Origin: Thiothrix fructosivorans
GTDB lineage: Bacteria; Pseudomonadota; Gammaproteobacteria; Thiotrichales; Thiotrichaceae
Direction of reading: 5' to 3'
NCBI RefSeq assembly: GCF_017349355.1
Contig: NZ_JAFMPM010000006.1
Span: 992,001-1,056,000, forward strand
DNA: 64,000 nucleotides
A program made the position numbers and the translations under genes. Positions 13,537-30,523 of this stretch are shown here, in pieces. A model generated the notes under the pieces. That model was not told the origin of the DNA. It saw only the letters and a list, made by a program, of their open reading frames with translations, and made no database searches. Position 1 is the stretch's first letter. Each line of letters starts with the position of its first letter.

Positions 13537-14322
13537 TTACTGAACATTGAGTCCCAAAAACCCCCGCAAATCCCCATTCCCCAACGCCCTCCGACGCGGC
13601 GGCAACTTATCCACATCCGCCGCCATCACCTCTCGATACGCCGCCCGCACAAACGCCATGCACAGCGGATCAACCGCCCCCGTTTCCGCCTCAGTTTTCG
13701 TCGCTTTATCCCAAATCTGTCGCTGAAACGCCTCCAGCACCGCCACATCATCCGTCAAAGCCTGCAACAAATCCGGGAACACCACGGTAGGCATCGTGTG
13801 TTCGCGCATCACCCACAACGCACTCAGCGTGGCGCGGCTGATGTAAAAAAACCGCTTCAGCTTGATGTCCGGCGCATCCAGCGCAGCAATCATGTTGTGC
13901 GCCATCGCGCTATAATGGTGGAAAGTCGCCTTGGCGTTGAAGGTACGCGCCACCATCTCACGCAGCAGCGCCGCCCGTTGCGGGTCTTCGCGGTAAACCA
14001 GTGGTGAAATCAGCCATTCCTGAATCACACTATTGCCGCTGTTAGCGAGTGTCATCGCTTTACGCACATCCCAGCCGCCAATATCCAGCACCGCGTTGAC
14101 GGGCAGTTCGATCACATCGCGTTCCGGGTCAAGCTGGATGTACCACTCCGGCGCATGGGCATACACAAAGCGCACATCGTAATCACTATCCGGTGAAGGA
14201 AACCCCCACGAACGGCTGCCGCTTTCAATCGCACTAATAATCGTCACCTGATGCTGGCGAGCCAGCTCCTCCAGCTTGCCCAACACTTCCGTGCGGATGC
14301 TGGTATTAATCCGTTCCTGCAT
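13537..14322 (-). CDS. RlaP-like nucleotidyltransferase (PF10127), second gene of a pair
   Basis: 261 aa. The polymerase-beta catalytic motif GSRSWGFPSPDSDYDVRFVY is at residues 36-55, with the metal-binding D-x-D pair in DYDVRF. A helical C-terminal region follows. Members of this family (YcgL/RlaP) have been linked to RNA repair in comparative analyses; the exact substrate is unknown. The ATG abuts the stop of the upstream paralogue (TAAATG), so the two are co-translated, suggesting a heteromeric enzyme or tandem activities. Confidence 0.8.
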   Translation of the reverse strand: MQERINTSIRTEVLGKLEELARQHQVTIISAIESGSRSWGFPSPDSDYDVRFVYAHAPEWYIQLDPERDVIELPVNAVLDIGGWDVRKAMTLANSGNSVIQEWLISPLVYREDPQRAALLREMVARTFNAKATFHHYSAMAHNMIAALDAPDIKLKRFFYISRATLSALWVMREHTMPTVVFPDLLQALTDDVAVLEAFQRQIWDKATKTEAETGAVDPLCMAFVRAAYREVMAADVDKLPPRRRALGNGDLRGFLGLNVQ

Positions 14323-15231
14323 TTACACCTTCCCCTGATAACGTTGCAACACCTGCCCAATCTCCTCCAACGCCCGCTCCGCCGCGTGCGGACGACTCAC
14401 CGCCTCGCTAATCGAGCCGAAATGCTGTTCCAGACAATCCGTCAGCAACTGGCGGATGGCGTCAGTATCCGGCGCATCCGGCAAGCGGCTGGCGAGATAC
14501 ACCCGTTCCAGATCGGCTTCCTTGCGGGCAAAGTAATCTTCCAGTTGCGGCAGCGTCCATTCACCCCGGCGGATCGCTTTCATCTGCTCGGCATCGCGCT
14601 GCAAATCCATGTCCTGATGCATCAGCAATTGCTCAACCTCACCCAACAAGCGCACCACGTGATAGGCAAATTTCACGTCGTAACCGAATTGCTCCGTCAA
14701 TTCCTTGCGCTTGCCCTCCGGCTGTTTGGTACGGATTTTGTGCATCTGCCCGTAGGCATAACCCTTGAACTTCGCCCAGCAGCCCTTGTACAGGAACAAT
14801 TGCCGCCGTTCGCGCACCAGCTTGCCGATGGGCGAGGCATACAGCACGCAATTTTCCGGCACATACAGGCTGTCGATAATGTTGGGGTTATTGTCAGCCA
14901 GCAGGCGGAAATACTTGGCAATCGCAAACACCGTCACGTCATACACCCGCCCCTTGCCACCCAACGCCGCCGCATCGCGGATATGGTGCTGCTGGTACTG
15001 CTCGAATTGCACCGAGTAGCTGTCAAAACCCGGAATTTCGCCGCGCAAATGCGGAAACATCATGGTCTTGGGCGGAATCGCAAAGGCGTAGAGGTCCATA
15101 TCGGAACTGTCGTTGCTGACGCCATACGCCACGGAACCCATGATGACTTCGTACTGCACGGCATCGGTCAGAAAGTCGGGTGGGCTGGGCAGGAGCTTTT
15201 TGTGTTGGAGTGACTGGATGTGGCTGCTCAT
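14323..15231 (-). CDS. RlaP-like nucleotidyltransferase (PF10127), first gene of a pair
   Basis: 302 aa. The motif GSVAYGVSNDSSDMDLYAFA (about residues 32-51) has the G-S and D-x-D of polymerase-beta-type nucleotidyltransferases. The remainder includes KFAYHVVRLLGEVEQLL and a charged C-terminal helix bundle, typical of PF10127. It is distinct from the downstream gene, so this is not a recent tandem duplicate. Two such enzymes in one operon, within a region of defence-type genes, point to a role in RNA end repair or conflict; that is inference. Confidence 0.8.
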   Translation of the reverse strand: MSSHIQSLQHKKLLPSPPDFLTDAVQYEVIMGSVAYGVSNDSSDMDLYAFAIPPKTMMFPHLRGEIPGFDSYSVQFEQYQQHHIRDAAALGGKGRVYDVTVFAIAKYFRLLADNNPNIIDSLYVPENCVLYASPIGKLVRERRQLFLYKGCWAKFKGYAYGQMHKIRTKQPEGKRKELTEQFGYDVKFAYHVVRLLGEVEQLLMHQDMDLQRDAEQMKAIRRGEWTLPQLEDYFARKEADLERVYLASRLPDAPDTDAIRQLLTDCLEQHFGSISEAVSRPHAAERALEEIGQVLQRYQGKV

Positions 15232-15634: not shown

Positions 15635-18019
15635 ATGCTGCCCAACGCCAATCCCCACGTACCTGTCGCCCTGTTCGACCACCCTAAATACTGGGCGGAA
15701 TGCTACGACACCTCGCCGTATCTCCCCATGAGTCGTGCGGAAATGGACGTGCTGGGCTGGGATTCTTGCGACATTATTATCGTCACGGGCGACGCTTACG
15801 TCGACCACCCCTCGTTCGGCATGGCGGTGATCGGGCGGATGCTGGAAGCACAAGGTTTCCGCGTCGGCATCATTGCGCAACCGGATTGGCATTCCAAAGA
15901 CCCGTTCATGGCACTGGGCGTACCCAATCTGTTCTTCGGCGTGGCGGCAGGCAATATGGACTCGATGATCAACCGCTACACCGCCGACCGCAAAACGCGC
16001 TCCGACGACGTTTACACCCCCGGCGGCATGGCAGGCAAACGCCCCGACCGCGCCACGCTGGTGTACACGCACCGCTGCCGCGAAGCCTACCCCGACGTGC
16101 CGATCATTATCGGCGGCATCGAAGCCTCGTTGCGGCGCATTGCGCATTTCGATTACTGGCAGGAAAAAGTGCGCACCTCGATCCTGCTGGATGCCGCTGC
16201 TGACCTATTGCTGTACGGCAATGCCGAACGCGCCGTGGTCGAAGTCGCGCACCGCATCGCTTCCGGCGAACCCGTTTCCAGCATTACCGACGTGCGTGGC
16301 ACAGCCTTCATCCGCCGCGATACCCCGCAGGGCTGGATGGAAATCGACTCCTCCCGCATCGACCAACCGGGCAAAATCGACCGCATTATCAACCCCTACC
16401 TCAACACCACCGAGATGAGCGAATGCGAAGTCGAAAAGCGCAATGTGCAATGGTTTGAATACGAAGACCCGCGCAGCAAACGCCCCGACGAACACAAGCT
16501 GATCTTCCATCCCCGCGCCCGTTTAGACCGCGACACCACCGTGATCCGCCTGCCGTCTTACGAAAAAGTCAGCAAAGACAAAGCCTTGTACGCCCACGCC
16601 AACCGCGTGCTGCACTTGGAAACCAACCCCGGCAACGCTCGCGCCTTGGTGCAAAAACACGGTAACCTTGACGTGTGGCTGAACCCGCCACCGATTCCGC
16701 TGACCACGCCGGAAATGGATTTCGTGTTCGGGCTGCCCTACGCACGCCTGCCGCACCCGTCCTATAACGGCGTAAAAATCCCGGCGTATGACATGATCCG
16801 GTTCTCGGTGAATATCATGCGCGGCTGCTTTGGCGGCTGCACCTTCTGTTCGATTACCGAACACGAAGGGCGCATTATCCAAAGCCGTTCCAAAGAATCC
16901 ATCATCCGTGAAGTCGAGGAAATCCGCGACAAAGTGCCGGGATTTACCGGGGTGATTTCCGATCTTGGTGGCCCCACCGCGAATATGTATCGCCTCGCCT
17001 GCAAAGACCCGAAGATCGAAGCCGCGTGCCGCAAACCTGCGTGCGTCTACCCCGATGTGTGCCACAACCTCAACACCGACCACGCCGCCTTGAAGGAATT
17101 GTACCGCGAAGCGCGTACCCTACCCGGCATCAAGAAAATCCTGATCGGTTCAGGAGTGCGCTATGACCTTGCCATCAAAGACCCCGAATACGTCAAAGAA
17201 TTGGTGACGCACCACGTCGGCGGCTATTTAAAAATCGCACCGGAACACACCGAATCCGGCCCCCTGTCCAAAATGATGAAACCGGGTATCGGCGCGTATG
17301 ACGAATTCAAACGCCTGTTCGAGAAATACACCAAGGAAGCGGGCAAAGAACAATATTTGATCCCTTATTTCATCGCCGCGCACCCCGGCACATCCGACGA
17401 AGACATGCTCAACCTCGCGCTGTGGCTGAAGAAACACGGCTTCCGCGCCGACCAAGTGCAAGCGTTTTACCCCTCACCGATGGCATCCGCCACCACCATG
17501 TACCACACCGACAAAAACCCGCTGCACAAAGTCACCTACAAAAGCGAAAAAGTCGCCACCGCAAAATCACCGGAACAGCGCAAGCTACACAAAGCCTTTT
17601 TGCGCTGGCACGACCCGAAAAACTGGCCACTGCTGCGCAAAGCGATGGCAGAGATGGGGCGGCAGGAACTGATCGGCGATGGCGAGAACCAGTTGATCCC
17701 GCATTACAAAGCGGGCGAGGAACAGTTGGTGTATGAGGCGCATCGGCGCAAGAATAAGGGCGGGGAGCATCAGAAGCGGGTGGGGAAGCCTGTTGCTGCA
17801 ACGGCTGGGAAGCCGAATTATGGTAAACCTGTGCAAAGTGCAGCGGCTGGTAAACCCAATACTGGCAAACCCGCGCAAACAACAACGAGTAAACCGAATG
17901 CGGGTAAGCCGCAGGGTGGGAAGATGTTGACTCAGCATACGGGGTTGCCGCCGAAGGCGCAGGCGGATGTTGGCGGTAAGCCGAAACCTACAGGGAATAC
18001 AAAGCACCGAAGTAGGTAA
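15635..18019 (+). CDS. ygiQ: YgiQ family radical SAM protein
   Basis: 794 aa. The N-terminal YgiQ domain (UPF0313) includes [20 protein letters not shown] and [17 protein letters not shown]. The radical SAM cluster motif CFGGCTFC (CX3CX2C) lies near residue 397, inside [18 protein letters not shown]. The C-terminal 80 residues are low-complexity GKP repeats, longer than in the partial copy downstream. Biochemical function of YgiQ is not established. The gene is intact, but bases 16396-18010 are duplicated at 28342-29790, and the AT-rich helicase operon ends only 11 bases after its stop. Confidence 0.93.
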
Positions 18020-18030
18020 TATCTACACAC

Positions 18031-20673
18031 TCAACCGGAGAGGTGAGCTAAAAAAACACTATGCTCGGTAACTTCAGGATAACTAAATGGCAAATTTAGT
18101 TTCCCTAAATTATTTGTGACGAATAACTTTGCCTTGTCCAATTCGTCAACCGCAAATTCATTTGGAATCTCTGATGTTAGTTCCTTTTCGAGAGGGGATG
18201 TCTTATTAAGCTCTAGTAATAAGCACTCGTCTTTCAATAATTCATAACTTTCACTAGCACGGACAGCCACCAATACAGAATTAACTTGTCCCTCGCTAGT
18301 TGTTACTCTATCAATAATTGAAAAAATATAGATAGAGGCATCTAGTGTTGGCAAGAACGTCACTCTCGACTTAAAGTCAATCGCTTGCCCAATTGCTTGA
18401 TCCATCATCGGATGCCCAACTCCCATAATGTCACTATCAGGATATGTTTCTCGGCTGAATAGCATTTTCTCATAGCGTCGCTTGATAGCAGGCGATTTCT
18501 TCCGCCAGTTATCAGGCGTTATAAAATCAAAACCTCTTTCTTGATTCTTACTTAAGCGATTGCCATTCATAGAGAGCATTGCTTTGAAGAATGGTTGTAA
18601 ATCTGCCAAGTCAAGTTTAGGTACGCCTTTCAAGCCACTTAGATCAAAACTTTGAGCTTTTCCAATCAGTTCTGAAACAGTTTGAACAACATCCTTTCCA
18701 CCGAGTGTTTGCGTTTTTTCATCAAACCATGAATCCAGTGATTCAGCAGAAATGCTATTTGCATCTGTAAATAATTCATCAAACAGTGCAGGGGATGCCA
18801 TGCCCAAGACCAATTGCATCAAATCTTCCGATTCTGTCATGGCTGCGCCCAATGCCAACATGATAGAACGAATTTTTTCCTCCAGTTTTCTCCAGATTTT
18901 GGATTCAACTGTGCTAGGGTTGCGTAATGACACGACTTCAACCGGATATTTTTGACCATAACGGTTCAAACGCCCCACCCGTTGATGTAAACGCATGGGA
19001 TTCCAAGGCAAATCTGCATGAATCAGACAATGGCAGTTCTTTTGTAAGTCGATACCTTCCCCTGCCGCTTCAGTTGAAACTAAATATTTGAGCTTCCCTG
19101 AATTGAACTGGTCTGCGGCAATATCACGGGTCGCATTCAGTTGTTTAATTGAGCCATCGGGATAGCGGATATTGCGCAGTGTATTTTCACCATTAATAAA
19201 ACCAACGACCTCCGCACCGTACTCTTTAATCAGAGATGAGACGATCAATGCTTGAGTCGTTTTATATTCAGTGAAAATCAGTACTGGTCTGGCATTAAAT
19301 CGCTCTTTGGTAATATCAATGATCCGTTGCACACGTGTTTCTTGAGTAACGACTTTAGCAGATTGAATGAGTTGTTCAAGGTGCTGAACTTCATTTTCCA
19401 TGAGATTAATTTTGGATTTTTTATCCGCTTTAATCCAGCTTTCAAACAGATGTTCAATCTCATCAGCTTTATGTTCTTCACCAAGGTCAAGTGCATCACC
19501 TTCCTCAACTTCCTTACGTAATTCTCCTGCTTGTTTAAGCAAATTGTTACGTCGCGTTTGCAGTGCAGCCAAAACCGCCGCAACGGAACTAGAAGCCAGT
19601 TTCTGCAAGGCAATCAAGACGAGCGTGACCTGTCCACGCCCTTTGCTACTCAGATTAGAAGCATAAGCATGACCTGCTTGTATGAATCGTGTCATCAATT
19701 GGTAAAACGCTGCTTCATCTTCACTGTATTGATAAGTTTCAGGGTATTGTTGGATAGGCTTAAATAAAGGAGTGCCCTCCATATCCACTACTTTTTGTTT
19801 GTTGTTTCTAATAAGAAAACTGGATAAATGGGTAAGTTGCTCAATGTCTTTCTTACTGGGATTAAACAGTGTGTTATCCAACAGGCTCATCAATGACCAA
19901 AAGCCGTAGGGTTTTCCACGGTGGGGTGTACCCGTGAATAACAGCAAAGAGGTAATTTTGTCGTGTTCCTGCATTTTTTCTAATAGCTTAAACCCTAGTG
20001 TCTTTCCTGTGGTCTCGGTGGCATGTAAATGGTGCGCTTCATCAACGACGACTAAATCCCAAGACTCAGAGTCTAGTAAGCGTTCATGGCGGTTATTGTT
20101 ATCTGCACGGAGTGTGGGAAGTGATGCGACGACTTGAGAATGCGTATTCCAGAAATCCGCCTTACCACGATCCAGTTCAGGGCGGTAAATGGCTAGGCGT
20201 ATGTCGAACATCTCACGCATACGTTGTTGCCATTGTTCCACTAAAGGGGCAGGTGTCAGAATTAATAAGCGTTTTACTTTTCCGCTAGAAATTAGTGGCC
20301 ATAGAATTAAACCCGCTTCAATGGTTTTACCTAAACCTACATCATCGGCAATTAATTTGCGGATAGGCCAATGACGCAGGGCTTGGTGACACGTCCATAA
20401 TTGATGCGGTAACAATTTAATGCGGGAGCGTGAGAATACTCCCCACGACATATTGATGGATTGGATAGCGGCAGCTTGAGCACGTAAAACTGTTTCTAGC
20501 GGCGAAGAAAAATGACCTGAGACTAAGGCTTCTCGGACGCTTAGGCGTGTTTCCAGTTCACTGCTTGGAACTTCTTCAATACCGTGGTCGAAGCGGATGA
20601 TTTTGGTTTGTCCATTGTCGAGGATAACCGTGCCTAAACCAAATTTAGGATGGTTGACTTGTGGGGTGCTCAT
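18031..20673 (-). CDS. SNF2-family DEAD/DEAH helicase of a putative defence operon
   Basis: 880 aa. Residues 8-40 (HPKFGLGTVILDNGQTKIIR...) look like a small SH3/Tudor-like module similar to that in UvrD-type proteins. The helicase core has motif I DVGLGKT (111-117), motif II DEAH (211-214), motif III FTGTP (246-250), motif V STEAAGEGIDLQ (about 533-545) and motif VI QRVGRLNRYGQ (about 563-573). About 250 uncharacterised residues follow. It is nearest to RapA/DrmD-like bacterial SNF2 ATPases, which translocate on double-stranded DNA. Its ATG overlaps the stop of the 2494-aa gene (ATGA), so the two are coupled and probably form one complex. No methylase or nuclease domain is recognised. Confidence 0.88.
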   Translation of the reverse strand: MSTPQVNHPKFGLGTVILDNGQTKIIRFDHGIEEVPSSELETRLSVREALVSGHFSSPLETVLRAQAAAIQSINMSWGVFSRSRIKLLPHQLWTCHQALRHWPIRKLIADDVGLGKTIEAGLILWPLISSGKVKRLLILTPAPLVEQWQQRMREMFDIRLAIYRPELDRGKADFWNTHSQVVASLPTLRADNNNRHERLLDSESWDLVVVDEAHHLHATETTGKTLGFKLLEKMQEHDKITSLLLFTGTPHRGKPYGFWSLMSLLDNTLFNPSKKDIEQLTHLSSFLIRNNKQKVVDMEGTPLFKPIQQYPETYQYSEDEAAFYQLMTRFIQAGHAYASNLSSKGRGQVTLVLIALQKLASSSVAAVLAALQTRRNNLLKQAGELRKEVEEGDALDLGEEHKADEIEHLFESWIKADKKSKINLMENEVQHLEQLIQSAKVVTQETRVQRIIDITKERFNARPVLIFTEYKTTQALIVSSLIKEYGAEVVGFINGENTLRNIRYPDGSIKQLNATRDIAADQFNSGKLKYLVSTEAAGEGIDLQKNCHCLIHADLPWNPMRLHQRVGRLNRYGQKYPVEVVSLRNPSTVESKIWRKLEEKIRSIMLALGAAMTESEDLMQLVLGMASPALFDELFTDANSISAESLDSWFDEKTQTLGGKDVVQTVSELIGKAQSFDLSGLKGVPKLDLADLQPFFKAMLSMNGNRLSKNQERGFDFITPDNWRKKSPAIKRRYEKMLFSRETYPDSDIMGVGHPMMDQAIGQAIDFKSRVTFLPTLDASIYIFSIIDRVTTSEGQVNSVLVAVRASESYELLKDECLLLELNKTSPLEKELTSEIPNEFAVDELDKAKLFVTNNLGKLNLPFSYPEVTEHSVFLAHLSG

Positions 20674-23600
20674 TCAAACAGTCCTTCTACTTCGTCATCT
20701 TCTTCTAACTTTATGCCAGAAATTTTAGTTAATAAATCTTTATTACTGGCAAGAACGAGCAATGGAATATCAAAATCTCCACCAAACGTTGCTTTTTCCT
20801 CACCTAAGCTGTCAAGAAGTAATTGGTAAATTGTAAGACTTTCTTCATAAGTTTCCCAATCAGTATCGCTAAGCTGGGCTAGTATTCGCTGAACACGTGG
20901 AGCTGCCATATAAGCGTGAGCGTGAGCCTCTTTAGTATCAATAATCCCCGTTCTCAGTAGCTCACGCACAACCAGACTGAAGCCTTTTCGCAGCGTTCGA
21001 CGAATCGGTGAAATATGTCCGAAGCCAGAACCTTGTAGTAAGGGATCAAGGTTGGGATTTAAGACGTTTGGTATATTTTCTTGCTGGCGATATTGAATAC
21101 CTTCAAATAAAGTGACATAGCTATTTAAGTTCAATGCAACCTTGAACAAATTCGGTAACATGGTCATCCAGTAACTATACTCTTCATCGTAATCTTGGCT
21201 TTCAGAGTATTCATACAGCATATTCAGCCATCCCTCACCATTTTCTTTGGGGTTTGTGCAGAATGTGTCCCACCAGCCTTTGTGCTGCAAGTATTCTATA
21301 AATCCCTTTGTACCAAAATCTCGCACACGTCCAAGACGTTGAAATACACCAATGCTCAAGAGGAGCATCCAGCCTTGACGGCTGTAATCACCATTTTCAT
21401 GGATGGTGAGATTAGGTATTTCGCCTCTCGGATAAAGCTGAGATAAATACTTATTTCGGTAGTATTTGCGTCCTTCTTCTTCCCACCATTGATGAATTTG
21501 AGCTAGGCTAGCTTGGGATTCTGGAGGTTCAGGTGGTGATGAAAAGACAATAGGCGAAAGGCTCACATCACTATCTGACTGAAGTCGATGGCGAATTATT
21601 TTTTTGTCATTATCATCCCAAGTTTTTATCAGACTTTCCAAGGATGTTTTATCAAACCATTTACTTGTTCTTTGATTTCTTACCTTATCTGCTAATTTCT
21701 GTCCATCATCACTTTTTGCTATGTATCGTAATGCTGCTTCTTGTTTTTCAGCCGATGCACTGATAAACCATTGTTCTAATTCTTCCGCACAGTCCATTTG
21801 TTTGCGGCAATTCCTAAAAAATTTCTTACCATTTTCTTGATAGGTATCAGATAACACATGCTTATCAGGTGCAAACGCAACTCGAAGTTTTTCTTCTTTG
21901 TCTGCTCCATGCGCTGACAGCAGTTTACCAGATGGCTGATAAGTGTCTTGTTTTGATAAGAACTGTATGTCACTAAGCTGATTTTTTTCGTTATCAGTTG
22001 GTTTTTCATCTTGATAAACAATAGCAAAGAAACTACCTAATTTATCAGCAAGTTCTACATTGCATTTTTTATCTTCGATGAGGTCAATGAGATTGCCCAA
22101 GCCAAGTTCAGAAATTCTCGAATCTGGCCTAAGCTCCCGCCAAATTTGCATAACCCAAGCAGTAACAACTTTATTGCTTGGATACGCTTTATCAAAAGTA
22201 GCCCATCCTCTTAAATACTGAAGTGCATTACTTGAATGCCAATTTTCAGGAATAGAATGACTAATACTGTCAGCTTGAACCAATCTTGCTTGTTCTTGAG
22301 GCAAACCATTAGGAATCAACCTTGTGTTTTCAGACCATGACAATAACAATGACTTAACGAAAGATTTTGCCAAGTGAAAAGGTGCATCATCTTTTTTCCA
22401 AGTGTCACTGTCAGAAAATTGTTTCCAAAGTGATGTCCACCATTCAGCCTTTGACACATCTTCAGCCAATCCCAATTGTGGCATCAGCACTGCCCAATCC
22501 ATTTTATAAAGATCAGCTAAGGCAAATCCGAATCGTTTGCCAAGTTGTTCCGCTAAAGCTTTGTTTTGATCGTCGTGTGTACCAGCACCTGCTAATTTTC
22601 CGCGTCCTGCATCAATCTGAAATGGCGCACTAATAACAAAACCAACACTTGCCGTTTCACGAGTCGGTGCCACTACCCAGAAAGAAGGCGTTTCATCAGT
22701 CAAAAGCTCAAAACCACGGGCGGAAACATGAAAGATAACAGCTACATAACCCTGTTCTAATTGATCACGAAATACTAAGTAGTGTTTTCCATCTAGTCCG
22801 CCGAACTCTAAGGTTTTACTAGCATTCAAATGATTTGGCTGCCATGTAACAGCAATATCATTGATCACAATGCTACGTAGCATCTTTCCTGTCAGGCACA
22901 ACATGGCTTGCTGTTTCTGAAAACGAGATAGCACGTCGGCTGGTTGCGCTTCGTTACTCAATGGTAAAACTACTAATGTCCCTTGATAACGTGGATTATT
23001 AGTTTGCTCTATCAAAATGTTGACTGCTTCTATACATTCATCCCCACCCCAAACCTCAGGAAGAAAACCTGCTACAATGTTGACTTTTAAATCTCCACTG
23101 ATAATTTTGGGTGAGTCACAAGCTAAAAAAACGCTTTTAAAGCCTAAGCCAAATCGACCAGTCACTCCAGTATCATCAGATTTTCCACTAGCCGAAAGTG
23201 TAAGCATCTTTTTTAGGTCGTAAGCAAAGTGAGGCCACTTTTTTTGAACTTCTGAAGTTCCACGATAATTAATAGGTCTTCCCCAGTGGGAAATATAAAG
23301 TACATTTCCTTCAAGCTTTATATTAAAATGCTTAGTTTTATTATCAAAGTCTTCTTCTTGTAAATATCGCCTCATTTCCAGTACAGCATCGTCAGCATTC
23401 TGAAATAATTCAAATGGTATGCTACTTGCCTCATACTGATAATCAGATAGTTTATCTCTTAACTTACGAAGAATATAATTATGGACATTTAATTCTTTTA
23501 AGCTAATAATTATCTTTTCTTGATTGATTTTTAATTCTCTTTCTAGTTTTTCTTTCTCTTCTTGATTATTGCTTTTTTCATTAATAGCAAGACCAAATTC

Positions 23601-26600
23601 TATATTTTTGGCTTCACTCAAGTATTCTTTTAGTGGAGACTCATTATTCGCATTTAATAACTCATCTAGGTATGGAACCATATGTTTGAAGATAACTCTT
23701 CGAGTAACATCAATATCTAATTGATGGCTTTCTGATAATTGATCAAATAGCTTATTTAGACTGTCTTCATCTTGTAGGTAAAGCTCAGTCCATAACCAAC
23801 GGCATGTTTCTCTTACTATTTTGTTTGCATGTTCGCTATTGTTTAACGAAATTGATTTGTTATCCCATAAGTATAATCTAGTGCTAACCTTTTGCTCTTT
23901 TTTATCAATAAATAGATTGCTTTTATCTATAAAGAGATTATCTATATTTTCTTTTAATTTAAAGGTGGTTCTATTACCTAGTATATTATTGGTCTCTGCG
24001 AATTTACTATTTTTCTGTTGTTTCTCCAACTTAATATGTAATCCGTTGACTAGAGCTGACTCGCATGATTTTTTGTTCTCCACTTCAAACGAACGGGTGA
24101 TTTTAAAATCATAATTGAGTATATTTAATGAGTTTAATATAGGTGGATTCCACTTTAAACTATTAAATATTTCATCAATACGAAAAGGATTAAGATAGGC
24201 TTTTATTTGCTCTTGTTTATCTTTTGATTTTCCAAGCAATATTAATAGTAAGCCTAATAGTTGGTTTTTCGATAAGCCTTCAAATAACTTCAAGTAATTA
24301 TCAAGCTGGGCTGACTGAGATGAATCATTGGTTTGCTTATCAACCAGTTCATTGCCATAATTTAAATGATTTTTGAGAATTGAGCGTTGTTCATCACACA
24401 ATACAAATGCATCATCAACGCCTGGTGCGTCAATACACAACTCACTTGCTAGTTTCCAGCTTTTACCATCTTTCGCTAATAACTTGATCTGAGGTAGCAA
24501 TTCCTCTACATAACCCGCCACTACCATTTGGCGCAAGTAAAAAGCATAAGCTGATTGTGCTTGTTGGGAGTTTTTCTTTTGCAACCAGTCGAATATATTG
24601 ATTAACGTTTCTTTTTCAGGAAGCCTATTAAAATTAGCCAACAAATGACGTTTACAATCATCCAGTGTAAATTTTGCTTTTTGATCATCATTGGAAATTT
24701 TAACATCAAGTAATGCTTTAATAATTCCCCAGCTTGGTGCAGATTCGCAATCCGCTAAAGTCTTTGCCAGCTTGCCAATATCATCAGACTCACATAAAGA
24801 ACCAATTGCATAGGCGGAAACTTCATTCATCAATAAAGCCAGTGTTTCCAAAACCGACTCTGACTTAGTAAAAAATAGAGGTTTTACTTTTTTGTCAAAG
24901 GCAGAATGCTGAATAATGCTGTCATGCAAGTCTTTATCACTGGCATAGGCATAACTAGCGGATGCTGCCAATTTTTGAATAGCATCTTCCAGTCCTGTAA
25001 TGGTAATAATATCATTAGGTGACAAGATTTGATTGTTTTTTAATAACAACCATTTTGTAGATTTAAGTTTTTCTTGTGACTCAAGATTGAGTTTATCTTT
25101 ACCTAACCAAGTCAGAATTTCTTTGTTATATTCGCTAGATTTACCGCTATCTAGTGCAATACTGATAGCTACTTGTTCATCTAGTTTGGTAATCCAATTT
25201 TGCTTTTCAGAAATTTCACTAACAGGCTCAATAATACTAATATCATCTTTCAAGGAGCTAGGTAATTCAATCGATGTTTTTAAATAAGTATTGGCTTCAA
25301 TGGATACCCAGCGCCCATCAACCGTTTTGTGCCAAGGCAAACGACACCAGAAATTTTTATCAGCAATCTTATTAAGAATTTCAGTACGTTCATCTGTTGT
25401 AAAATCTTCAGCTTGTAATGATGTAAGACTCTCTAACTTTTCAAGTTCTTCTAGAATTTTATCAGGTTTGATTTCTTTAATACTAAGAATTCCCGAAGTA
25501 TTACGAGAAAGCACATTAACCAGTTCTGGCCCTATGACTTGCCAATGATTATTACCTATAAGTTTGCGCTGTAATTTTTCCCATGCTGACGATTGATCGT
25601 GAGCATTTATCCATAAAACTGCATCAGTATTATCTTTATATGCACAATTCGCATGAAGGACATAACGGACTCCTTTTATTACATGAGCCTTGTCAGTGAT
25701 TTGGCAGATTTCTAATATTTTCTTCCTCGGCAATAGTTCTGGATTCAATTTTTCATCAGATTTCACTAACGCATTAAATATTGCTTCATCTTCATTTTCT
25801 TTAGGTAAAATTTTATCAAAAAGTATTTCATTATACTCTGCATCAATCGCTAAAACCAAAGAACTCGACAAGCAATTAGATAGTACTTTTATTTTTTCAT
25901 GCATATCTTTTCCTGCAAATGAAAACAGTAAAGACTTTTCGTTTGATTTTGATAGTTCTCGATAGCTAACTACTATTTTTTTGTCTTGTTTCGCATCATA
26001 AGCAGAAATAATTCTCCAATCTTGATTTTCTTTAATGAGCAGTAAGCAATCATTTTTATCTAAATCTTTTAAAACAGTCTTCGTTAAATGCAATATTTTT
26101 TCAGGTTTAAATTCCTGCAAAGATTTCAACCATTGTTCTGCTGCTTGTTTTGTTGGTTTTCCTTGTGCAGATTTATCATTGCTATCAAGGAAAGCAGGTA
26201 TGGGTAGAATTTCTCCTTCACATTGCCATAATGCTTTTAAAATATCATCACTAATATTTGATTGTGATTTTTCTTCAAGAGCACCAAATCGCCAGCGTTT
26301 TTCAGCAGGAACATGCTCTAATACTCTGGCAATTTTAGTCTTATTGTGTCTAAGTCGTTGTTGTCCATGATGGCTAATGGCTTCTCGAATAAATTTCAAT
26401 AAGGCTTGTTGTACCTTTCCAAAACCAAGTTGAGGATTAATGAGACTGAGAAAGTCATTAAAATAATCTAACTGAATAGATTCAGCAAATAAGCTAGCCG
26501 ATGGTTTTTGCAAAATAGATAAAATACTTTCTTCATTCCATTGGTAATGTGCTACAGATATAGCCGTGCTATTATTATCTGCAAAAAATGTATTTTGCAA

Positions 26601-28154
26601 TTCTGCTAAACAAGGCAGCACTTCCCACGGGCGTTTGGTTGAATCTTGAGGCGGAGCAGGCAAAGGCAGAATATTTATTGCATCACTATTTTTATGTAAT
26701 CGCCATTGACTGCCAGATGGTAATAACTCACGAAACCAACTATACTCATTGCAAATAAATTTTAGATACTCAAAGCCCTCTAGTGCTTGCTTAAACGCTA
26801 TAGTGAGTTCTTCGATTTCATTATTTTTGAGTTGGTTGGCTTTAATATATTCATTTAATGCTGGCAAAATCAAAGGGAAACACATTTCCTGAGCTAATGC
26901 TTGATTCCAAACTTGACGTAGTGATTGCTCATTTTTTACATCATCTATGTTTATACATAGCTTGCTGAGACTATCGAAAGAATGAATTCCAAGTCGCCCC
27001 GCATCAATAAAAAACTGACCATGCAGTACAAAATGATAATGTCGGGAGCTATTAGGTATTTTAACTTCTTTAATATGGGTCTTTTCTTCAAGAGGTAAAA
27101 ATACTGCCCACTGCATTGTAAGCTTTCCTGACACTCCATCTTGATGAGAAATAAGAATAGCTCCTTCTGCACTAGATTTATCTTCTTTTGTCTTTTCTTC
27201 GCCATATTCCTTATCTATATAACGTATTTCTGGCCAATATTGATGGTGTTTTAATTTATCAAATAACGTACCGCATTGATTTATTCGATTTCTTTTTCCC
27301 CATATTGGCATTTCAACAATAGTACCAATTTTTATTTTCCCAATACTAGTAACGCTATTCTCTCCATCTGGTTTAATCAATCGCGGCTTTATATCTAAAT
27401 GAATAGTAAACTCATATTTTTTCCAATTTTCCATATTAACAAGAAAACTAACTTCTTTGATGTTGGCTAATAAAGGTAATAATTTTCCTATTTGTATTGA
27501 TAGGTTTTCATTGGTCAGAAAATTCAGTTCTTCTAACTTATCACCTGGGCGATTAGGTGTAATGCTGCTATATTTTTTATCTGTTCGATTTGGAATTTTT
27601 AGATGACACTCCGTCCTTAATGGAATCCATAACAAAAACCATGAGCTTTCTTTATTAATAAGTCCAGCAAACTCATTTTTTAGTATTCGTATGTCTTCTG
27701 ATTCATAATTAACCCAATCATCTTCCCAGTTTTTATGTGGGTAATTATCTTTATGATTATTCCAAGGATTTATTAAATCCGAGCAATTAATAGATTTTTC
27801 TTTATCAAATGCAATATACAAAAATGATTCACACCAATGAAAAACACTTTTCATCCCCAAACCAAACTTACCAATTGGTTCACTCTCACCTGCTTTAGCA
27901 TTAATCCCCATTGAGCCAATAGATTCTTTATCAGCAGTTTTGAATTCACCATCATTGAAGCACCATAAGCCTACGCCTTGCAACAATGGATGTTTACAAT
28001 CAGGTATTCCACTATGAATACCAAAGACAAAGCGAGGTGCTTTGGCATCATCGGCATTTTGGATTAGCTCTTTGATGATAGGAAAATCTGATTTGTAACG
28101 ATCACTGAGGTTTTTCTTGATGTCGCTAATATTATCATTGGTGAGAGCTGTCAT
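20670..28154 (-). CDS. Giant sacsin-like protein with two Hsp90-type (GHKL) ATPase modules
   Basis: 2494 aa, AT-rich and lysine/asparagine-rich unlike its neighbours. First GHKL module: N-box ELIQNADDA (29-37), G1 box CFNDGEF (65-71), G2 box GKFGLGMKSVF (95-105). Second module: ELFQNADDA (1582-1590), an altered G1 region ISHWGRPIN, G2 box GRFGLGFKSVF (1666-1676). A charged coiled-coil-prone stretch (about 1510-1545) precedes the second module. The two copies plus intervening helical sequence resemble the repeat plan of sacsin. GHKL ATPases of MORC/Hsp90 type combined with SF2 helicases have been described in bacterial restriction-like loci (Iyer, Abhiman and Aravind, 2008), which supports a defence role. 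No nuclease motif was recognised. Expressed first in a two-gene operon with the SNF2 helicase. Confidence 0.85.
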   Translation of the reverse strand: MTALTNDNISDIKKNLSDRYKSDFPIIKELIQNADDAKAPRFVFGIHSGIPDCKHPLLQGVGLWCFNDGEFKTADKESIGSMGINAKAGESEPIGKFGLGMKSVFHWCESFLYIAFDKEKSINCSDLINPWNNHKDNYPHKNWEDDWVNYESEDIRILKNEFAGLINKESSWFLLWIPLRTECHLKIPNRTDKKYSSITPNRPGDKLEELNFLTNENLSIQIGKLLPLLANIKEVSFLVNMENWKKYEFTIHLDIKPRLIKPDGENSVTSIGKIKIGTIVEMPIWGKRNRINQCGTLFDKLKHHQYWPEIRYIDKEYGEEKTKEDKSSAEGAILISHQDGVSGKLTMQWAVFLPLEEKTHIKEVKIPNSSRHYHFVLHGQFFIDAGRLGIHSFDSLSKLCINIDDVKNEQSLRQVWNQALAQEMCFPLILPALNEYIKANQLKNNEIEELTIAFKQALEGFEYLKFICNEYSWFRELLPSGSQWRLHKNSDAINILPLPAPPQDSTKRPWEVLPCLAELQNTFFADNNSTAISVAHYQWNEESILSILQKPSASLFAESIQLDYFNDFLSLINPQLGFGKVQQALLKFIREAISHHGQQRLRHNKTKIARVLEHVPAEKRWRFGALEEKSQSNISDDILKALWQCEGEILPIPAFLDSNDKSAQGKPTKQAAEQWLKSLQEFKPEKILHLTKTVLKDLDKNDCLLLIKENQDWRIISAYDAKQDKKIVVSYRELSKSNEKSLLFSFAGKDMHEKIKVLSNCLSSSLVLAIDAEYNEILFDKILPKENEDEAIFNALVKSDEKLNPELLPRKKILEICQITDKAHVIKGVRYVLHANCAYKDNTDAVLWINAHDQSSAWEKLQRKLIGNNHWQVIGPELVNVLSRNTSGILSIKEIKPDKILEELEKLESLTSLQAEDFTTDERTEILNKIADKNFWCRLPWHKTVDGRWVSIEANTYLKTSIELPSSLKDDISIIEPVSEISEKQNWITKLDEQVAISIALDSGKSSEYNKEILTWLGKDKLNLESQEKLKSTKWLLLKNNQILSPNDIITITGLEDAIQKLAASASYAYASDKDLHDSIIQHSAFDKKVKPLFFTKSESVLETLALLMNEVSAYAIGSLCESDDIGKLAKTLADCESAPSWGIIKALLDVKISNDDQKAKFTLDDCKRHLLANFNRLPEKETLINIFDWLQKKNSQQAQSAYAFYLRQMVVAGYVEELLPQIKLLAKDGKSWKLASELCIDAPGVDDAFVLCDEQRSILKNHLNYGNELVDKQTNDSSQSAQLDNYLKLFEGLSKNQLLGLLLILLGKSKDKQEQIKAYLNPFRIDEIFNSLKWNPPILNSLNILNYDFKITRSFEVENKKSCESALVNGLHIKLEKQQKNSKFAETNNILGNRTTFKLKENIDNLFIDKSNLFIDKKEQKVSTRLYLWDNKSISLNNSEHANKIVRETCRWLWTELYLQDEDSLNKLFDQLSESHQLDIDVTRRVIFKHMVPYLDELLNANNESPLKEYLSEAKNIEFGLAINEKSNNQEEKEKLERELKINQEKIIISLKELNVHNYILRKLRDKLSDYQYEASSIPFELFQNADDAVLEMRRYLQEEDFDNKTKHFNIKLEGNVLYISHWGRPINYRGTSEVQKKWPHFAYDLKKMLTLSASGKSDDTGVTGRFGLGFKSVFLACDSPKIISGDLKVNIVAGFLPEVWGGDECIEAVNILIEQTNNPRYQGTLVVLPLSNEAQPADVLSRFQKQQAMLCLTGKMLRSIVINDIAVTWQPNHLNASKTLEFGGLDGKHYLVFRDQLEQGYVAVIFHVSARGFELLTDETPSFWVVAPTRETASVGFVISAPFQIDAGRGKLAGAGTHDDQNKALAEQLGKRFGFALADLYKMDWAVLMPQLGLAEDVSKAEWWTSLWKQFSDSDTWKKDDAPFHLAKSFVKSLLLSWSENTRLIPNGLPQEQARLVQADSISHSIPENWHSSNALQYLRGWATFDKAYPSNKVVTAWVMQIWRELRPDSRISELGLGNLIDLIEDKKCNVELADKLGSFFAIVYQDEKPTDNEKNQLSDIQFLSKQDTYQPSGKLLSAHGADKEEKLRVAFAPDKHVLSDTYQENGKKFFRNCRKQMDCAEELEQWFISASAEKQEAALRYIAKSDDGQKLADKVRNQRTSKWFDKTSLESLIKTWDDNDKKIIRHRLQSDSDVSLSPIVFSSPPEPPESQASLAQIHQWWEEEGRKYYRNKYLSQLYPRGEIPNLTIHENGDYSRQGWMLLLSIGVFQRLGRVRDFGTKGFIEYLQHKGWWDTFCTNPKENGEGWLNMLYEYSESQDYDEEYSYWMTMLPNLFKVALNLNSYVTLFEGIQYRQQENIPNVLNPNLDPLLQGSGFGHISPIRRTLRKGFSLVVRELLRTGIIDTKEAHAHAYMAAPRVQRILAQLSDTDWETYEESLTIYQLLLDSLGEEKATFGGDFDIPLLVLASNKDLLTKISGIKLEEDDEVEGLFE

Positions 28155-28341
28155 ACTTGTTTATCCATCGCTGTGAAGAGGTAAGGTGATTATCTATAAA
28201 AATTACCTATTACAGAAGACAATTTTAGTCAGAAAAATAAATTTCAACCAACATCGTTTCCGTGATTTGGAAAATTTCCATCAAACACCTTCACGAATGA
28301 GGTAGGCTAATAGCCCCTTTGAGCAACAAAGTGATCCTCCA

Positions 28342-29798
28342 CTACCTCAACACCACCGAGATGAGTGAATGCGAAGTCGAAAAGCGCAATGTGCAGTGGT
28401 TTGAATACGAAGACCCGCGCAGCAAACGCCCCGACGAACACAAGCTGATCTTCCACCCCCGCGCCCGTTTAGACCGCGACACCACCGTGATCCGCCTGCC
28501 GTCTTACGAAAAAGTCAGCAAAGACAAAGCCTTGTACGCTCACGCCAACCGCGTGCTGCACTTGGAAACCAACCCCGGCAACGCCCGCGCCTTGGTGCAA
28601 AAACACGGCAACCTTGACGTGTGGCTGAACCCGCCACCGATTCCGCTGACCACGCCCGAAATGGATTTCGTGTTTGGGCTGCCCTACGCTCGCTTGCCGC
28701 ACCCGTCCTATAACGGCGTAAAAATCCCCGCTTATGACATGATTCGTTTCTCGGTGAATATCATGCGCGGCTGCTTTGGCGGCTGCACCTTCTGTTCGAT
28801 TACCGAACACGAAGGGCGCATTATCCAAAGCCGTTCCAAAGAATCCATCATCCGCGAAGTCGAGGAAATCCGCGACAAAGTACCGGGATTTACCGGGGTA
28901 ATTTCCGACCTTGGCGGCCCCACCGCGAATATGTACCGCCTCGCCTGCAAAGACCCGAAGATCGAAGCCGCGTGCCGCAAACCTGCGTGCGTTTACCCCG
29001 ACGTGTGCCACAACCTCAATACCGACCACGCCGCATTGAAGGAATTGTACCGCGAAGCGCGTACCTTACCCGGTATCAAGAAAATCCTGATCGGTTCAGG
29101 GGTGCGCTATGACCTTGCCATCAAAGACCCCGAATACGTCAAAGAATTGGTGACACACCACGTCGGCGGCTATTTAAAAATTGCACCGGAACACACCGAA
29201 TCCGGCCCCCTATCCAAAATGATGAAACCGGGCATCGGCGCGTATGACGAATTCAAACGCCGCCCCCCTCAACCTCGCGCTGTGGCTGAAGAAACACGGC
29301 TTCCGCGCCGACCAAGTGCAGGCGTTTTACCCCTCACCGATGGCCTCCGCCACCACCATGTACCACACCGACAAAAACCCGCTGCACAAAGTCACCTACA
29401 AGAGCGAAAAGGTGGCAACGGCGAAATCACCGGAACAGCGCAAGCTGCACAAAGCGTTCTTGCGCTGGCACGACCCGAAAAACTGGCCGCTGCTGCGCAA
29501 AGCGATGGCAGAGATGGGGCGGCAGGAACTGATCGGCGATGGCGAGAACCAGTTGATCCCGCATTACAAGGCGGGTGAGGAACAGTTGGTGTATGAGGCG
29601 CATCGGCGCAAGAATAAGGGCGGGGAGCATCAGAAGCGGGTGGGGAAGCCTGCGCAAGTGGCAGCGAAACCGAATGCGGGTAAGCCGCAGAGTGGGAAGG
29701 TGTTGACGCAGCATACGGGGTTGCCGTCGAAGCCACGCTCAGACTTTGGCGGCAAACCGAAGCCGACGGGGAAGCCCAAACAGCGTAGCGATCGATAG
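28342..29798 (+). pseudogene. ygiQ: 5'-truncated, frameshifted second copy of ygiQ
   Basis: Homology to ygiQ begins abruptly at 28342 (equivalent to 16396), so the first 254 codons are missing. At 29261-29267 seven bases replace 93 bases of the intact gene (17315-17407), a net loss of 86 that shifts the frame; the original frame resumes through the ATG region near 29244-29798. Up to the deletion the encoded protein appears identical to the intact copy although many codons differ silently. The GKP-repeat tail is shorter than in the intact copy. The radical SAM cysteines are kept, but no full protein can be made. This copy marks the far edge of the inserted helicase operon. Confidence 0.92.
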
Positions 29799-29861: not shown

Positions 29862-30113
29862 ATGCAAACTTTTGACCAGATTGTTGACCAGACACGCAAC
29901 CTGCCGGAAAGCATTCAGCGGGAAATCCTGCACTTTGTGGAGTTCATCGTTACCAAGTACCGCTCTGCCCCAGTGCTTGAGCAACAGGCAGTGCCGAATG
30001 CGTTTGCCATCTACCAATCACTGGATTTGGGGCAAGGCGGCTACGCCAAAGTACCGTCGAATCGGGCGAAGCAGGGAATCCGTGAACTGCTGCTGAAAAA
30101 GCACGCCCGATGA
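29862..30113 (+). CDS. DUF2281-type antitoxin
   Basis: 83 aa. Begins MQTFDQIVDQTRNLPESIQR with EILHFVEFIVTKY, the helical N-terminus of DUF2281 antitoxins; the tail (KVPSNRAKQGIRELLLKKHAR) is basic. The ATG at 29862 was taken as start because the frame homologous to the family begins there. Its stop overlaps the toxin ATG by ATGA. It neutralises the PIN-domain toxin next door and probably represses the operon. Confidence 0.78.
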   Translation: MQTFDQIVDQTRNLPESIQREILHFVEFIVTKYRSAPVLEQQAVPNAFAIYQSLDLGQGGYAKVPSNRAKQGIRELLLKKHAR

Positions 30114-30523
30114 TTTTAATGGATACCGGGCCATTGGTAGCCCTGTTTGACCCGCAAGACCCTTACCACAAGCATTGTAGCGGTTTGCTGAAAACCATCC
30201 GTGAGCCGCTGATCACAACCATTCCAGTATTGACCGAAGTATTTCATCTGTTATCCCCCGATAGCCAAGGCAGCAAAGCGTTGCGCCAGTTCATTGAGCG
30301 CAAAGCCTTAAGCGTCTGGTTTATGGATGAATCTGCCCTCAGTACCGCATTGAACCTAATGGAAAAGTACATTGACCGCCCGATGGATCTCGCCGATGCG
30401 TCATTGGTTGTGGCAGCACAACGGCTGGGAACAAATCGTGTATTCACCGTTGATCGCAATGACTTTTTTGTTTATCGCGTGGCAGTCGGACATGAGTTGC
30501 GGGCGTTTGATGTGATTATTTGA
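30110..30523 (+). CDS. PIN-domain ribonuclease toxin (VapC-like)
   Basis: 137 aa. PIN acidic residues: D in MDTGPLVALFD (residue 5), E in TTIPVLTEVFHLL (about 44), D in MDLADASLVVAA (about 98) and D in VFTVDRNDF (about 118), a complete set. Paired through a 4-base overlap with the DUF2281 antitoxin. Likely cleaves RNA when freed from its antitoxin. Confidence 0.86.
   Translation: MILMDTGPLVALFDPQDPYHKHCSGLLKTIREPLITTIPVLTEVFHLLSPDSQGSKALRQFIERKALSVWFMDESALSTALNLMEKYIDRPMDLADASLVVAAQRLGTNRVFTVDRNDFFVYRVAVGHELRAFDVII

Follow-up and report, generated by a model that had tools for sequence, protein, structure and literature searches.

A recurring mobile gene pair in Thiothrix fructosivorans joins a giant double-GHKL sacsin-like ATPase to an SNF2-family motor and is a candidate immune module

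Why should a bacterium keep a 2494-residue protein with two Hsp90-type ATPase modules directly beside an SNF2-family motor, and do the two genes form a unit? The question is raised by a 64,000-nt stretch of Thiothrix fructosivorans DNA (contig NZ_JAFMPM010000006.1, positions 992,001 to 1,056,000; here called the window), in which the gene for a giant sacsin-like protein overlaps that for an 880-residue SNF2-family protein. An earlier reading of the bare sequence, hereafter the original prediction, had described a coupled, AT-rich two-gene system of recent arrival and possibly defensive function. The open reading frames (ORFs) are as it described, with 4 nt in common, and the pair is indeed AT-rich, its GC content being 37.3% compared to 52.6% in the remaining window and 43.8–55.5% in 20 control stretches of the same contig. 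The features of the pair, in window positions, are these:

18031..20673, minus strand: SNF2-family (RapA/BrxHII-like) motor protein, 880 aa (ORF with ATG start; Pfam; PDB relative RapA)
20670..28154, minus strand: giant double-GHKL sacsin-like ATPase, 2494 aa (ORF with ATG start; Pfam SACS in two stretches; PDB relative sacsin SR1)
20670..20673, minus strand: ATGA stop/start overlap of 4 nt, belonging to both genes (sequence)
28155..28338, no strand assigned: presumed promoter, from the giant start to a ygiQ remnant (placed by coordinates; putative function)

We scanned a genome collection with a five-member SNF2 alignment (window, two Deinococcus, Trichormus and Sphingomonas), which returned at least 542 relatives, and analysed the best 80 loci. 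These fall into two groups separated by a clean gap, 45 close loci at 41–55% identity and 35 distant loci at 26–33%. Relatives of the giant were sought in each locus by single-sequence phmmer and then by profile searches for GHKL modules 1 and 2. The two genes are adjacent, with giant sequence upstream of the SNF2 gene, in 44 of the 45 close loci; in the other (L037), 33 upstream bases are available. In 42 of the 45, the upstream sequence contains an ORF that matches the giant, and only the C-terminal end of the giant is present in L053 and L062, the contig of the latter departing from the family further upstream of that end. By profile, module 2 was found in 44 and module 1 in 35 of these loci. 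Nine of the ten loci without module 1 have a contig that ends inside the giant (or, in L062, the break just mentioned), and one, L058, has room for it. Co-occurrence in other genomes was a point on which the original prediction had said its coupled two-gene system should be judged, and this side-by-side recurrence speaks for it.

When four plasmid loci (L027, L028, L029, L031) and one viral contig (L113) are added, the giant is present at the ORF level in 47 of 50 loci. At these 47 junctions, a 4-nt overlap is possible in 18, another start lies within 40 nt in 23, and neither applies in 6. The pair extends to Deinococcus, Trichormus and Sphingomonas plasmids; seven plasmid records carry the giant, and an SNF2 relative adjoins it in five. 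A search of viral contigs (IMG/VR) with the giant gave one contig, which also carries the SNF2 gene. The hosts belong to ten phyla: Pseudomonadota, Desulfobacterota, Acidobacteriota, Planctomycetota, Chloroflexota, Gemmatimonadota, Cyanobacteriota, Spirochaetota, Verrucomicrobiota and Deinococcota. Among 369 genomes of the class, that of the window was the only one in which the SNF2 family (E 1e-150 or better) was found, and likewise the only one with the second half of the giant (E 1e-40 or better). When 144 genomes of the genus and wider kin were searched with the helicase, the best match outside the window's genome had 34% identity (249 bits), which is the level of the distant group. Scanning genomes with the giant by itself gave no relative, as the short patterns taken from it lay in variable stretches.

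In the distant group, single-sequence phmmer found no giant upstream in any of the 35 loci, 28 of which have at least 2 kb of upstream sequence. By profile, two of the 35, both from Verrucomicrobia (L094:4000-9720 and L103:4060-9858), do have a divergent GHKL giant immediately upstream of their SNF2 gene, with a GHKL region of the module-2 type and an SNF2 protein 28–30% identical to that of the window. A third distant locus, L105, has a weak module-1 match away from the SNF2 gene. The giants of L094 and L103 imply that at least one further, distant branch of the module exists. A Thiocystis metagenome-assembled genome (L034:223-8575) presents a different picture, with the first ∼166 residues of the giant (95% identical to L033) followed by other ORFs, the remnant lying about 7.8 kb upstream of the SNF2 gene; this is either a broken system or an assembly fault. 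Because the arrangement recurs in dozens of other loci, it cannot be ascribed to chance, and it is near certain that the pair is a real mobile two-gene module.

The two genes also appear to be inherited together. For 30 pairs (leaving out L042, the one of 31 aligned giants that lacks the N-terminal part of module 1), pairwise distances between giants and between SNF2 proteins were strongly correlated (Mantel r 0.90; none of 5000 permutations as high). We then estimated dN/dS for six pairs. In the four closest, values were about 0.13–0.20 for the giant and 0.05–0.12 for the SNF2 gene, which indicates purifying selection on both; the remaining two were near or at saturation. The giant evolves faster than the helicase, with a dN of 0.467 compared to 0.084 between L033 and L035. 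Between the giants of L055 and L069, aa 1–1300 are 67–89% identical and aa 1401–2494 are 82–95% identical, the N-terminal half diverging faster. Identity profiles of six pairs contained no discrete, swappable specificity domain, a candidate we consequently dropped.

What kind of protein is the giant? It matches the Pfam family SACS in two stretches (119.3 bits; cut-off 32.8), and NCBIfam P_loop_sacsin likewise matches twice, in agreement with the two GHKL modules originally predicted. A PDB search gave sacsin SR1 (E about 1e-5). Within the protein, we distinguish the following:

27417..28118, minus strand: GHKL module 1, aa 13–246, sacsin type, with N-box residues E29, Q32, N33 and D36 and G2 loop FGLGMK (Pfam, alignment, Foldseek)
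26994..27023, minus strand: HGxFFxDAGR motif after module 1, aa 378–387, with a putative sensor arginine (alignment)
22920..23471, minus strand: GHKL module 2, about aa 1562–1745, with N-box FELFQNADDA, G2 loop FGLGFK and GRxxN at G1 (alignments, Foldseek)
22602..22622, minus strand: FxxDxGR motif after module 2, aa 1845–1851, with G1850 and R1851 conserved (putative role)
20955..21254, minus strand: conserved C-terminal block, aa 2301–2400, candidate partner interface (identity peak)

In the aligned family, both modules show the hallmarks of GHKL ATPases, namely Glu and Asn in the N-box, the glycine motifs and, in the domain that follows, a basic residue that is conserved. For the structure alignments, plasmid loci were left out, as was L065, a near-duplicate of L060. 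The N-box and the glycine-rich G2 loop are kept in both modules in at least 90% of 31 aligned giants. The modules are not equivalent at G1: module 1 usually has NDG or NNG, and in module 2 the usual motif is replaced by GRxxN, which is invariant in 28 sequences, mostly as HWGRxIN. Each module is followed by a conserved arginine, R387 after module 1 (invariant, like H378, across 28 aligned giants) and R1851 after module 2; these may be the sensor residue of the second ATPase domain. Toward the C-terminus, aa 2301–2400 form an identity peak in most of the six pairs compared, and the alignment shows G2391, R2397, E2398 and R2401 to be conserved.

AlphaFold models of aa 1–1200 and aa 1295–2494 have mean pLDDT values of 83.7 and 83.0. 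With Foldseek, module 1 best matches sacsin SR1 (5v44), followed by Hsp90, MORC2 and SMCHD1, and the model of aa 1295–2494, which holds module 2, best matches TRAP1/Hsp90. Among the 50 matches listed, those with significant scores are essentially GHKL-type proteins. The last 600 residues (aa 1895–2494) are mostly helical in the model, with only six strands of 3–4 residues. No nuclease family was matched in the giant by Pfam or NCBIfam; as aa 600–1200, a mixture of helices and short strands, gave no match and the models cover aa 1–1200 and 1295–2494, the missing nuclease fold is weak evidence. With Pfam at a threshold of E 0.1, neither a DnaJ nor a HEPN domain of the animal type was matched, and such parts were rejected. 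Of viral structures, a phage RIIA-like protector protein matches aa 1295–2494 best, and one giant homologue weakly matches the RIIA PHROG; it is tempting to speculate that RIIA might mimic or oppose such clamps.

The modules are separable, since module 1 stands as a separate gene of about 700–830 aa in the cyanobacterial loci L027, L050 and (split further) L075, and on a separate, more distant ORF in L076. Either the double-module giant would be a fusion or the cyanobacterial arrangements (L027, L050, L075) would be splits.

The partner is a motor of familiar type. Pfam SNF2-rel_dom and Helicase_C are both above their cut-offs, and the nearest solved structure is RapA (E about 1e-46). Two regions can be delimited:

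18844..20430, minus strand: SNF2 two-lobe motor core, about aa 82–610, with DDVGLGKT, DEAHH and QRVGRLNR (Pfam, motifs)
20524..20658, minus strand: candidate N-terminal TUDOR-like segment, about aa 6–50 (profile alignment; domain name as applied to BrxHII in PMC12839542)

A profile alignment over 828 columns joins the protein to the distant-group helicases, and over these columns it is alignable with helicases of the BrxHII/RapA architecture of type-3 BREX (as set out in PMC12839542). All five distant-group helicases that we scanned scored best with BrxH models. The Deinococcus wulumuqiensis member (L029:19317-21947) has, as read, an in-frame stop near codon 51.

Does the pair belong to a system that already has a name? 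A search of open-licence PMC papers found none for it, and the available portions of PMC11090510, PMC12137116 and PMC8195603 do not describe it. The original prediction had likewise placed the pair with no named system, which stands for the pair and needs amending for the helicase, as PADLOC does call the SNF2 protein DrmD (PDLC02634, 887 bits, full length). However, this 900-position model fits the 900-aa Trichormus member of the family (L027:20011-22713) end to end (2174 bits, 1–900), so the label looks circular and gives no evidence of DISARM. Most likely, PDLC02634 was built on that very member on account of the genes around it, as the Trichormus plasmid has drmA, drmC and a DUF1998 gene close by. 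Genes annotated as DUF1998 and helicase-related also lie near the Synechocystis giant. Across 52 loci, tblastn of flanks of at most 10–12 kb placed DISARM relatives near four in total (DrmC at 2, DUF1998 at 3 and DrmA, with a partial query, at 2). The SNF2 protein falls short of the cut-offs of two NCBI DrmD models (282.6 versus 610 bits and 173.9 versus 950), no DISARM core gene was found in the window (DrmA query partial), and DUF1998 and DrmC were not matched in the window's genome in a search run without a positive control. With the cut-offs missed, no core genes in the window and DISARM-like genes near so few loci, we rejected DISARM membership.

Other systems fare no better. PADLOC TmtA (Tiamat) matches the GHKL regions of the giant (E 6e-23), but the match is restricted to the ATP-binding part of models of 1370–1782 positions, and Tiamat was set aside. 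Druantia type III and Hachiman, which also combine a large protein with a helicase, were not among the PADLOC matches listed (25 of 59 families for the helicase and 4 for the giant). BREX differs in that no constant PglZ, BrxC or methylase adjoins the pair, and in that the SNF2 protein belongs to its own family, set apart by the gap below 41%; PglZ occurs in 2 of 121 neighbouring proteins, and BrxC was not searched by itself, nor the window's genome for either. Eukaryotic sacsin resembles the giant in carrying several Hsp90-like modules in one chain (according to PMC3710099), whereas the giant has no ubiquitin-like, DnaJ or HEPN match and is partnered by a DNA motor.

One of the closest precedents is that cited in the original prediction, namely the MORC/paraMORC loci described by Iyer, Abhiman and Aravind in 2008 (PMC2292703), where a GHKL ATPase likewise adjoins a SWI2/SNF2 helicase and the surroundings are mobile. 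As a precedent for GHKL-plus-SF2-helicase loci it holds. However, those ATPases are of MORC type and often accompanied by nucleases or methylases, whereas in the present pair the ATPase is a double sacsin-type chain of 2500 aa and neither a nuclease nor a methylase is a constant companion; the word sacsin is absent from the accessible text, and the pair is therefore probably not among the loci described there. We conclude that the pair is a genuine module that so far has no name and falls within a broad class already known (GHKL plus SF2 helicase), in which the comparisons set it apart by its double sacsin architecture and by having no constant nuclease or methylase.

The surroundings of the pair were examined next, beginning with its borders in the window:

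15635..18019, plus strand: complete ygiQ-type radical-SAM gene, left insert border (ORF, Pfam, blastn)
28339..29773, plus strand: second ygiQ copy, 5′-truncated and decayed, right insert border (blastn pieces)

The left gene ends 11 bases before the end of the SNF2 ORF. The right copy (limits approximate) consists of pieces 84–96.5% identical to it, matching ygiQ nt 759–1681, 1774–2195 and 2257–2363. The original prediction had taken this duplication as a sign of recent arrival. The duplication is real and arrival is supported, but it is no lone scar, being one of 19 partial copies counted (window; L139–L148, L156, L157) at a genus-wide hotspot. All 16 genomes of the genus that we searched have the ygiQ-type gene, and 9 of them carry further copies. 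Copies on one contig share their orientation, and most reach the 3′ end (exceptions, G003 and G005); a copy in G014 lies on a different contig, and an IS66 element splits a copy in G013. The copies are truncated at differing 5′ points and separate blocks of cargo. As a rule, a given cargo comes with its own truncation point. Truncation at nt 1694–1703 follows the same HNH pair in four genomes, and truncation at nt 478 follows one and the same DUF6402 block in two genomes, the junctions being conserved. G005 is an exception, in that the fragment after a related HNH pair begins at nt 1102.

Cargo at the site includes an HNH gene with a C5-methylase, HNH pairs, TIR, nSTAND1, HEPN/Toprim, peptidases and DUF6402 proteins, together with metabolic and transposase genes. 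No integrase was found among the 30 selected ORFs scanned against Pfam, and cargo may well spread by homologous recombination through the common ygiQ arms. For Photobacterium damselae, a hotspot of acquisition flanked by YgiQ has likewise been proposed (PMC7690375). Of the 18 window proteins scanned with Pfam, the pair included, the conflict-type ones are a WYL protein, an IrrE/M78 protein, two RlaP proteins and one PIN protein. The description of the pair as lying among defence-type genes is to this extent correct, but, apart from the pair, the remainder of the 18 comprises the two ygiQ copies, transport proteins, a Cys/Met enzyme, a GntR-aminotransferase, a GDA1/CD39 phosphatase and an RsgA GTPase. 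The RlaP-type genes (RNA-repair polymerase-beta family) are adjacent, at 13537–14322 and 14323–15231 (minus strand), just outside the left ygiQ copy. The PIN-domain protein (30110–30523, plus strand) adjoins the ygiQ remnant, and relatives in the same cluster occur at the ygiQ site in G004, G007 and G009.

Neighbours in other genomes were examined as a set of 121 proteins from 37 loci (at most three downstream and two upstream per locus, excluding plasmid loci, L065 and ORFs <150 or >1400 aa). The Pfam families listed (25 of 89) include phage integrases (5), TraH (3), TraF (3) and TraG (2), as well as C5-methylases (3), AbiEii-type AAA proteins (3), transposases, PglZ (2), BrxL (2), GmrSD (2) and Fic (2). 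There is no constant third gene: no cluster of neighbours is present at more than 5 of the 50 loci (blastp at E 1e-6, by which divergent families could be split). Single loci have a nuclease or methylase, and none recurs beside the pair across the 50. Since none was matched in either protein, the absence of a recognisable nuclease or methylase, flagged in the original prediction, is confirmed within these searches.

What, then, might the module do? Immunity is its likely function. We are more tentative about the mode of action, and would put at somewhat under an even chance that the target is DNA and that a clamp and motor block rather than cut it. As a whole, the reading we prefer, and offer tentatively, is that of a mobile immune module in which an ATP-driven clamp and a DNA translocase would block invading DNA without cutting. 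Two non-equivalent Hsp90/sacsin-type modules in one chain could form an internal ATP-gated clamp. The TUDOR-SNF2 motor would move on double-stranded DNA, with invading DNA as the presumed target, and would load the clamp or drive it along the DNA, perhaps through contact with aa 2301–2400 of the giant. Closed clamps might then stop transcription or replication of that DNA through MORC-like entrapment, without cutting. A sharper version, in which a single-chain, internally heterodimeric Hsp90/sacsin clamp driven by a RapA-like motor silences invading DNA topologically and without a nuclease, as a counterpart of MORC/SMCHD1, is a possibility that we hold only loosely.

Several observations support the preferred reading of a non-cutting immune module. 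Both GHKL modules and the motor keep their ATPase motifs, and the two genes adjoin each other across ten phyla, are co-inherited and mobile, and evolve under purifying selection; conflict genes occur among the neighbours and at the hotspot in the window, and no nuclease or methylase recurs. The kinship of the motor with RapA and, along the entire protein, with BrxH-type helicases fits as well. Other observations weigh against it. In Rhodoblastus acidophilus (L058:5960-9977), only the second half of the giant, as two ORFs, lies upstream of the SNF2 gene. Two plasmid giants lack an SNF2 gene, the Synechocystis one broken up beside insertion sequences and the Haematobacter one a divergent 2103-aa protein. 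Trees of the two proteins share 11 of 27 splits and contain nine conflicting pairs of supported splits. The distant loci are no neutral control, given the BrxH-like best scores in the five scanned and the GHKL giants in two of the 35. Among 50,697 phage records, none matched the giant and the helicase was matched only in part, although one IMG/VR contig does carry the pair. At E 1e-10 or better, the 121 neighbours matched 313 PADLOC models and 77 control proteins from the genome of the window matched 27, but these figures count models rather than proteins and the control is a single genome. Finally, the middle of the giant (about aa 600–1540, mixed helices and short strands) gave no match and the models skip aa 1201–1294, so a divergent nuclease could be present.

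This last point bears on a restriction-like scheme, in which the pair recognises foreign DNA and a cryptic domain of the giant, or host or neighbouring nucleases, cut it. Some relatives adjoin methylases, a NucS-like gene or GmrSD genes, and the MORC/paraMORC-helicase loci often include nucleases (PMC2292703). However, the giant matches no nuclease family and no neighbour cluster is common, which makes the scheme possible but doubtful. It is unlikely that the pair has nothing to do with immunity and instead serves its mobile element in maintenance, repair or competition. Its presence on plasmids and beside integrases and conjugation genes would suit such a role, as would its rarity (1 of 369 genomes of the class), but no constant element partner accompanies it in the 50 loci, and in the window it lies among conflict genes at a hotspot with no recognisable element. 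Still less likely is action on transcription or proteins, with a RapA-like motor working on RNA polymerase and a giant chaperone remodelling phage or host proteins. RapA is the nearest solved relative of the motor, and the folds closest to the giant are those of sacsin and Hsp90; against this, full-length relatives of the motor include BrxH-type defence helicases, and module 1 also matches MORC2 and SMCHD1, which act on DNA. That the pair is a DISARM variant with the SNF2 protein as DrmD is very improbable, the full-length PDLC02634 match and the Trichormus and Synechocystis neighbours being outweighed by the circular label, the missed cut-offs and the scarcity of DISARM genes.

For annotation, these data suggest that the DrmD label of PDLC02634 hides a separate system, and that tools may mislabel the family as DISARM. 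For the genus, they suggest that the core gene ygiQ is a site at which cassettes accrete. Sacsin modules are known above all from a human protein linked to neurodegeneration (PMC3710099). The mobile pairing of such modules with a DNA motor offers a clonable way to ask what sacsin/Hsp90-type clamps do with DNA.

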